39,433 bases of DNA from Alphaproteobacteria bacterium (GTDB lineage Bacteria; Pseudomonadota; Alphaproteobacteria; CAAHEQ01; UBA3637). Below the pieces are notes generated by a model. It was given only the letters and a program-made list of their open reading frames with translations, did no database searches and had not been told where the DNA came from. Shown piece after piece: positions 5,860-6,975 of the stretch. The position numbers and the translations under genes were made by a program. The stretch lies in NCBI GenBank assembly GCA_015062395.1, contig SUUS01000010.1, positions 1 through 39,433 on the forward strand. Reading direction: 5' to 3'. Positions within the stretch are counted from its first letter, which is position 1; each line of letters opens with the position of its first letter.

Positions 5860-5956
5860 ACTTAATCCTTTCTGTTGTATATAAGCTATCATAACATGAA
5901 AAGGGGGATAAAAATCAAGAAAAAAATATATTTTTTTATTTTTTTTAAATTTTATG

Positions 5957-5985
5957 TTGACAAGTAAAAGAAAATAGCTTATAAC
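5957..5985 (+). promoter_or_regulatory. tRNA-Met promoter
   Basis: Perfect TTGACA (5957-5962), 17 nt, TATAAC (5980-5985), 12 nt before the tRNA 5' end. Confidence 0.85.
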
Positions 5986-5997
5986 AAGCACTGTTGT

Positions 5998-6074
5998 GGC
6001 AAAGTAGCTCAGTTGGTTAGAGCAGCGGAATCATAATCCGCGTGTCGGGGGTTCGAATCCCTCCTTTGCTACCA
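5998..6074 (+). tRNA. tRNA-Met (CAU), elongator type
   Basis: 77 nt cloverleaf. Acceptor GGCAAAG/CTTTGCT, D arm GCTC...GAGC, anticodon stem GCGGA/TCCGC with loop ATCATAA (anticodon CAT), T arm GGGGG-TTCGAAT-CCCTC with one imperfect pair, discriminator A and encoded CCA. The GGC-type start and the anticodon stem fit alphaproteobacterial elongator tRNA-Met, not the initiator (no CGC start, no GGG/CCC anticodon stem). tRNA-Ile2(CAU) is less likely. An intrinsic terminator follows. Confidence 0.95.
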
Positions 6075-6110
6075 TTTTTTTATGCACTCGAAATTGGGTG
6101 CTTTTTTTAT
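6054..6110 (+). repeat. Direct repeat copy 1: tRNA-Met 3' end plus terminator
   Basis: Begins in the T arm (CGAATCCCTCC), runs through TTTGCTACCA and the terminator hairpin to its T tail. It matches 6270-6327 over its whole length with a handful of differences and one indel. It is part of the intact tRNA gene. Confidence 0.9.
6084..6110 (+). terminator. tRNA-Met terminator (copy 1)
   Basis: GCACTC, loop GAAATT, GGGTGC, then seven T. The stem includes one G-T pair. Confidence 0.85.
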
Positions 6111-6269
6111 TTTTTTATCGTTGGGATTCGAACCCGAAAGGGGATGTGGATTGAAAAACGTCCCGATGGACGATTTTCAAACGCAAATCCAATGATACCT
6201 TATGTTTGAAAGGAAGCGACAGCGACCGTATCAAACATTAGTTTCCATTGTACGAAGGCACGCAAGTGC
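6111..6269. other. Structured non-coding insert between duplicated tRNA 3' ends
   Basis: No open reading frame is visible, and the insert looks more GC-rich than its surroundings. It holds a row of potential stem-loops. These are a T-arm-like GGGATTCGAACCC that overlaps CCC-GAAA-GGG (6134-6143 region), GAAAAACGTCC-CGAT-GGACGATTTTC (6154-6179), long imperfect arms of about 24 nt between 6190 and 6250, and GGCAC-GCAA-GTGCC (6257-6270). Two hairpins have GNRA loops, which suggests a folded RNA. Nature unknown: possibly a non-autonomous integrated element or the scar of a lost island. Confidence 0.6.
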
Positions 6270-6327
6270 CGTATCCCTCCTTTGCTACCATTTTTCTTGT
6301 GCACTCGAGAACGGGTGCTTTTTTTAT
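6270..6327 (+). repeat. Direct repeat copy 2: tRNA-Met 3' end fragment plus terminator
   Basis: CG(T)ATCCCTCC-TTTGCTACCA is followed by a second terminator GCACTCG-AGAA-CGGGTGC and seven T. It lacks the rest of the tRNA, as in an attachment-site duplicate, and its offset from copy 1 is 216 nt. Differences are concentrated in the T run and the hairpin loop. Confidence 0.9.
6301..6325 (+). terminator. Terminator (copy 2)
   Basis: GCACTCG, loop AGAA, CGGGTGC, seven T. It would end any transcript crossing the structured insert and insulates the rubrerythrin promoter. Confidence 0.85.
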
Positions 6328-6346
6328 ATCCATTTTAAAAAAATAC

Positions 6347-6376
6347 TTGACTTTTTTTATCATAAAATTGTATTCT
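6347..6376 (+). promoter_or_regulatory. Rubrerythrin promoter
   Basis: TTGACT (6347-6352), 18 nt, TATTCT (6371-6376), in a T/A-rich region directly after the second terminator. Confidence 0.6.
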
Positions 6377-6435
6377 TTTAGATGAAAGTGAAATGCTTTC
6401 TTAAGAGTAATTTTGATAAAACAGGAGTTATAAAA

Positions 6436-6975
6436 ATGGAATTAAAAGGTTCAAAAACAGAACAGAATTTACAAACAGCTTTTGCAGGAGAATCGCAAGC
6501 GCGTAATAAATATACGTATTATGCAAGTAAAGCCCGTAAAGAAGGCTATAATCAAATAGCAGATTTATTTGAAGCAACAGCAAATAATGAAAAAGAACAT
6601 GCTAAATTATGGTTTAAAGCTTTGCACAATGATGAAGTTCCTTCAACAGATGTTAATTTGGCTGATGCTGCAGATGGTGAAAACTATGAATGGACTGATA
6701 TGTACGCAAATATGGCAAAGGAAGCAAGGGAAGAAGGCTTTACTAAAATTGCTGCTCAAATGGAAATGGTCGCTAAAATTGAAAAACGTCACGAGGAACG
6801 TTATCGTAAATTGTTAGCAAACATTCAAAACGGTGAAGTTTTCCAAAAGTCCCACGTTGTTATGTGGGAATGTGGAAACTGTGGTCATATTCATGTTGGC
6901 GAAAAAGCTCCTGAAAAATGCCCTGTTTGTAATCATCCAAAAGCATATTTCTTTATGCAAGAAGATAATTTTTAA
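6436..6975 (+). CDS. rbr: Rubrerythrin
   Basis: Non-haem iron peroxidase of anaerobic and microaerobic cells that reduces hydrogen peroxide. 179 aa. The N-terminal ferritin-like four-helix domain carries the diiron Glu/His ligands ([27 protein letters not shown]). The C-terminal rubredoxin domain has two CxxC pairs ([10 protein letters not shown] and [11 protein letters not shown]) for one iron. The start at 6436 has CAGGAG 8 nt upstream; an in-frame ATG at 6382 lacks a site and adds non-homologous residues. It is a monocistronic unit with its own promoter and terminator. Electron donor genes (rubredoxin, NADH reductase) are not nearby. Confidence 0.96.

Follow-up and report, generated by a model that had tools for sequence, protein, structure and literature searches.

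RtT RNA (Rfam RF00391) is a by-product of some tRNA operons, and CIMEs and other small integrative elements at tRNA genes are flanked by direct repeats of the tRNA 3' end. In Escherichia coli, three repeats of 178 bp lie behind tyrV, each with AATCCTTCCCCCACCACCA at its end, and the annotated end of the rttR RNA, at 1287066, lies exactly 178 nt past the end of tyrV and coincides with the CCA of the second tail. In earlier studies, rtT is reported to modulate the stringent response (Bosl and Kersten, 1991, as cited in PMC4986893), an RtT sRNA is described as increased in the cold (PMC8092127), and a 175-bp VNTR is placed at the rtT RNA of Salmonella (PMC2658671). PMC4986893 also describes, with Northern blots, Arrc20 and Arrc21 of Actinobacillus pleuropneumoniae, RtT-family RNAs that adjoin other tRNA genes (Asn and Lys); these are, however, gammaproteobacterial, and the passages on them do not mention a match to the resident tRNA. 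A general description of such tRNA-tail repeats was not found in the open-access literature, which is not proof of its absence in print.

The window, i.e., the whole stretch of 39,433 nucleotides that was analysed, belongs to an alphaproteobacterial genome of 1.36 Mb in 40 contigs (G000). It holds a tRNA-Met gene whose 3' end recurs a short distance downstream. The features of this locus, all on the plus strand, are the following:

5998-6074, plus strand: intact elongator tRNA-Met(cat), the resident tRNA
6057-6074, plus strand: first copy of the tRNA tail (3' part of the T-loop, 3' strand of the T-arm, acceptor and CCA)
6084-6109, plus strand: intrinsic terminator of the first copy, with its stem at 6084-6101 and a T run, from the prediction of terminator-like sites
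6111-6269, plus strand: gene-free spacer, the structured core, from the fold and the ORF scan
6123-6135, plus strand: reverse complement of the T-arm at 6049-6061; 6123-6127 is the 5' strand of P1, CCC at 6133-6135 the 5' strand of P2 (P2 extends to 6142)
6145-6185, plus strand: predicted long hairpin in the core, limits approximate
6190-6249, plus strand: second predicted long hairpin in the core, limits approximate
6257-6270, plus strand: short predicted hairpin GGCAC-GCAA-GTGCC adjoining the second tail
6273-6290, plus strand: second copy of the tRNA-Met tail, 18 nt identical, its first 5 nt being the 3' strand of P1
6301-6325, plus strand: intrinsic terminator of the second copy, with its stem at 6301-6318 and a T run, from the prediction of terminator-like sites

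The last 18-21 nt of the tRNA-Met and its terminator reappear 216 bp downstream. The direct repeat is 96% identical (6054-6079 against 6270-6295), and the terminator stretch 86% (6075-6110 against 6292-6327, with a shift of one base). When 6054-6110 was compared by BLAST with the window, a single other match was obtained (6273-6327, 91% over 55 bp, E 4e-13), and by this E value the repeat of tail and terminator lies far beyond chance. Three terminator-like sites occur within 5880-6480, where 0.4 are expected, and a stem-loop with a T run closes both copies of the tail. No ORF of more than 59 amino acids was found in the duplicated-tail stretch including the 159-bp spacer. The duplicated tRNA-Met tail and terminator around 159 bp of gene-free DNA, as described in the earlier note from the letters of the window, are thus confirmed as a real observation. 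The spacer is not featureless, a point that the earlier note does not mention: near its start, the 13 nt at 6123-6135 match the reverse complement of the tRNA-Met T-arm without a mismatch, and the spacer together with the second tail (6121-6290) is predicted to fold at -56.1 kcal/mol (z -4.37), a value reached by none of 200 shuffled sequences. In the predicted fold the unit is closed by P1 (GGGAT/ATCCC), followed by P2 (CCC/GGG).

This layout is that of the E. coli rtT repeats. These also lie behind a tRNA gene, whose final 19 nt, T-loop to CCA, reappear at the end of each unit. P1 joins this tail copy to a complement upstream of it, P2 derives from the T-arm, further hairpins follow, and the copies stand in tandem; compared by eye, P1, P2 and the hairpins are the same as in alphaproteobacterial units. 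The window unit, likewise, stands directly behind its tRNA gene, ends in the resident tail from the T-loop to the CCA (18 of 18 nt, 6273-6290), and carries the exact T-arm complement from which the P1 closing stem and the T-arm P2 are predicted to form. Its core, however, is longer and divergent. It was not detected by the RF00391 model, either in the window at the gathering threshold or in the window locus at E up to 5, and other Rfam families apart from tRNA gave sub-threshold matches alone in the spacer. Nor was it matched, with filters off, by two covariance models built for alphaproteobacterial units, R1 in the window locus and R2 in the whole window. As the core is divergent and missed by all three models, the placement of the window element rests on architecture: it is RtT-like, sharing the frame of the class but not its core, and is not filed as an RtT member. 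We regard it as probable that the window feature is an RtT-like tRNA-tail repeat, in which a structured core stands behind a tRNA and the resident tail is repeated after it. In the class, the core measures some 110-170 nt and the terminator is often duplicated; P1 is closed by the tail copy and an upstream reverse complement of the T-arm, the other half of the T-arm makes up P2, and more hairpins come after it.

A second full copy of the window unit (query 6054-6330) is not present in the same genome, its sole recurrence being a 36-nt stretch behind tRNA-Gly(tcc) on contig C40. The earlier note had proposed a search for the 216-bp unit at other tRNA 3' ends; while no full copy turned up in this genome, related units were found behind other tRNAs both here and in relatives. 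Inspection of the flanks of all 41 tRNAs of the genome showed, besides that of Met, repeated tails behind Arg(acg), Glu(ctc) and Ser(cga), the last with two tandem units; Ser(gga) carries a truncated unit with its tail repeated in part, and Pro(ggg) a related core with no clear tail. These units share a core type, GGTTCGGTGGCAAGC...GCAGACACGATGTCC...GGACAGTCC...GAGC, followed by AATC and the tail of the resident tRNA, with variation at Ser(cga) and Glu. Of 81 aligned core positions (87 alignment columns), Arg(acg) and Ser(gga) share 79, whereas the ends of the two units differ, each fitting its own tRNA. The Arg(acg) unit has no second terminator. Eight predicted unit folds mostly follow one design, with P1 formed by the tail copy and its upstream complement, P2 from the T-arm, and P3 to P6. 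The folds of Pro(ggg) (z -1.0) and of the unit in a related genome, G022 (z -1.2), are little better than shuffled sequence; the other units range from -2.1 to -5.6.

R1 was built from six elements, five from this genome and one from G022, and gave 85 matches in 24 of the 43 genomes of the family (E 0.1). We inspected 70 loci covering 72 of these matches, some of which overlap or share one array. A tRNA, in one case a tmRNA, lies within 600 nt upstream in 46 of the 70 loci, and among these the second tail is full in 25, partial in 12 and absent in 9. In the remaining 24 no tRNA was found, some of them lying at a contig start and some representing a dispersed form without a tRNA tail; with 9 of 46 lacking the resident tail and 24 of 70 lacking a tRNA, linkage to tRNA genes is not universal. 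Full or partial tails occur with Met, Glu, Arg, Ser, Gly, His, Pro, Val, Thr, Leu, Lys and Gln tRNAs. For tRNA-Met, such units are present in two other genera, in G017 (198 bp) and in G022 (185 bp). The G017 contig stops within a second unit (L012, 1758-1863), so that the copy number at this tRNA-Met may be hidden by assembly collapse.

The tails fit the tRNAs behind which they lie. Among 45 elements that lie behind a tRNA, 37 have a second tail agreeing with the resident at 13 or more of 19 positions, and for 34 of the 45 the resident is strictly the best tail when set against clearly different tails among the 41 of G000. Non-resident tails of G000 reach at least 13 of 19 in 5.6% of comparisons and never reach 16. 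The stems co-vary strongly: over 74 distinct aligned rows, in an alignment that was fitted to R1 and so is biased towards its structure, 84.8% of cells are paired, compared to 66.4% in shuffled and 36-47% in slid structures, and changes on both sides occur in 28 of 31 pairs, including all 8 of P1. When the P1 strands of 36 elements were swapped, own partners gave -12.88 kcal/mol against a permuted mean of -9.91, and none of 10000 permutations was as low, although the own partner was the single best entry of its row in just 6 of 36. Without gaps, the P1 5' strand agrees with the reverse complement of the resident at 9 or more of 11 positions in 6 of 45 elements, a weak signal, compared to 0.9% for other tRNAs.

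Beyond the family, R2, the alphaproteobacterial family model, matched 6 of 240 genomes in a class-wide search, three of them outside the family. The RF00391 model, for which E. coli was detected as a positive control, matched 39 of 299 Pseudomonadota genomes at E 0.01, 24 of them above the cut-off, G000 not being among them and giving no match at all. At 30 RF00391 loci, a tRNA lies upstream in 27, comprising ten anticodon species (Tyr, Lys, Ser, Gln, Arg, Asp, Val), and in these 27 the resident tail is full in 22 and partial in 2. E. coli rtT and other RtT loci share the same architecture. Of 31 RtT loci, R2 recognised 7, with a best E of 1.3e-6 and without that of E. coli K-12, and R1 recognised one. 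While E. coli rtT belongs to the tyrT-tyrV operon, the alphaproteobacterial units sit behind a dozen other tRNA kinds in a gut family. The frame, its occurrence over many tRNAs, the resident-matched tails and P1, and the presence or absence of units between close relatives are direct observations.

With regard to the latter, the earlier note had asked for strains with an empty site, and such a pair exists in close relatives. Within genus g6, the 185-bp unit follows the tRNA-Met of G022, and in G006 and G015 the site is empty, the tRNA-Met running straight into the terminator and flank that in G022 follow the second tail. Either an insertion or a precise loss between the tails would give this picture. 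In E. coli, 4680 of 5426 genomes have the RtT unit, and some strains show joined flanks without it (single-piece full-length matches H42-H44). Eighteen places of the rtT unit in the E. coli collection lie on records typed as plasmids. The other genome of the window's genus, G001, has no duplicated tail at any of its 38 tRNAs; the case of an ordinary duplication present in all relatives and without copies elsewhere, which the earlier note had named as refuting its reading, is excluded by this genome. We also surveyed 80 loci via the hydrolase that neighbours the window locus, mostly from uncultured Alphaproteobacteria, many titled rumen or gut, and including Azospirillum sp. CAG:239. A tRNA-Met is present in 14 of them, with a second tail within 700 nt in none of the 14; just these 14 are informative, as 66 of 80 have no tRNA-Met in the flank.

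How such units came to lie behind tRNA genes can be explained in several ways. In the earlier note the duplicated tRNA end was taken as the signature of integrase attachment, and the locus as either a tiny integrative element mobilised in trans or the scar of a deleted island. An attachment-site pair, in which a tyrosine recombinase acting in trans crosses over in the T-loop, so that the tRNA tail is attL and the second tail attR, would agree with tail duplications that begin in the T-loop and with the precise pairs of occupied and empty sites in genus g6 and E. coli. Also the direct repeats that include the tRNA 3' end are shared with CIMEs. Tyrosine recombinases (PF00589) occur in 43 of 43 family genomes, and integrase and element counts correlate (rho 0.44, p 0.003, 43 genomes, no phylogeny correction). 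The units differ from CIMEs, however, in that the window unit has no integrase gene (no ORF above 59 amino acids) and no attachment sequence is common to the copies of the family: near-identical cores bear the tails of different residents, and one attP cannot serve all of them. In the 27 better genomes the correlation loses its significance (rho 0.32, p 0.11, again without phylogeny correction); G022 has six elements with one integrase match, whereas G001 has six integrase matches and no element. We consider the attachment-site pair unlikely. From the earlier claim there remains that the unit is small, tied to tRNA 3' ends, related to units elsewhere and found at occupied and empty sites, while ordinary integrase attachment does not fit, so that its interpretation is partly supported. 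The tyrosine recombinase, given its weak correlation, was not adopted as mover. A tyrosine recombinase of about 197 amino acids lies at G000:C27:2962-3486 (minus strand), a few hundred bases behind tRNA-Thr(tgt), with similar short ones on C24 and C15.

That the end of the tRNA and its terminator were simply duplicated in tandem at this place, the space between being later filled with drifted sequence and the copy kept or lost by recombination between tails, appears distinctly unlikely. The two terminators of the window are indeed alike, tandem units occur at Ser(cga) and in G017, and loss between 19-nt repeats would produce the observed empty sites; but the spacer is far from arbitrary, with its exact T-arm reverse complement and strong fold, the family has a shared co-varying core at different tRNAs, the terminator at Arg(acg) is single, and the tail at Ser(gga) is duplicated in part alone. 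For the family as a whole, ordinary tandem duplication is already disfavoured. That the locus is the scar of a larger island, with the two tails, which do look like attL and attR, as its remains, is highly improbable: the 14 informative hydrolase-flank loci show no tail duplication, the spacer is structured, and small units of the same layout recur, whose spacers hold a conserved, co-varying core and which also occur in tandem. Other origins were considered as well. A Y1 (RAYT) transposase of the REP type was rejected, PF01797 occurring in 6 of 43 genomes and in none of the element-rich G000, G017, G022, G021 and G049; from the counts of Y1 and tyrosine recombinases in the 43 family genomes, no mover enzyme was identified. 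A viral origin was rejected, as the exact pattern of the family core (not that of the window core) was present in no viral contig. Phage and plasmid records gave partial matches, none covering 80% or more of the query; the matches listed cover 23-24% and correspond to the tRNA.

For the RtT-like tRNA-tail repeat, we propose the following course of events. Readthrough of the first terminator would release a small structured RNA that ends at the CCA of the second tail, as the 3' end annotated for rttR in E. coli suggests. Cores may occasionally be copied beside a new tRNA gene, the new copy obtaining its tail and P1 from the resident tRNA through duplication and a copying step at the palindromic T-arm, and recombination between the two tails may remove units. 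The window copy, whose core is divergent, would be an old or rearranged member. Two candidate mechanisms, a template switch at the palindromic T-arm and an attachment site formed by a folded single strand, would each yield the layout. A further-reaching idea, which we regard as doubtful, is that RtT-type repeats, instead of being an RNA particular to tyrT, form a widespread class of minimal mobile cassettes, which settle at tRNA 3' ends and take a new closing stem and tail from each host tRNA, P1 on P2 acting as a self-folding attachment site, like the attC of integrons, for a host or phage recombinase. If this were true, P1 stacked on P2 would recreate a double-stranded T-arm in a single strand, with the core extruded at the T-loop.

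The RtT design is now seen in a distant class, at about a dozen tRNA kinds, mostly with their own tails and with a shared core. An old curiosity of E. coli thereby becomes a testable question, namely what copies the core to a new tRNA and fits its tail; whether the released CCA-ended RNA does anything is a second one. A duplicated tRNA end alone is no proof of an integrase: a single attP does not explain resident-matched tails, and integrase counts do not cleanly track the elements.

Among the R1 matches, two further forms were observed. Units with a tRNA-Gln-like tail (...CAGCCA) occur at L143, L145, L129, L130 and L126 after a conserved stretch like CGTGTATTACCAGACCTCTCCAGCCA, L126 being different; in L143, L145 and L129 this stretch matched no Rfam family at the thresholds used. 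A dispersed core form, with CAAGCA-like and CAATTTACA-like ends, is found at L113 (1501-1622), L120 (1501-1621), L148, L151 and L154, where it lies behind terminators and matches no nearby tRNA tail. This form looks like an intergenic repeat that is derived from, or ancestral to, the tRNA-tail form.
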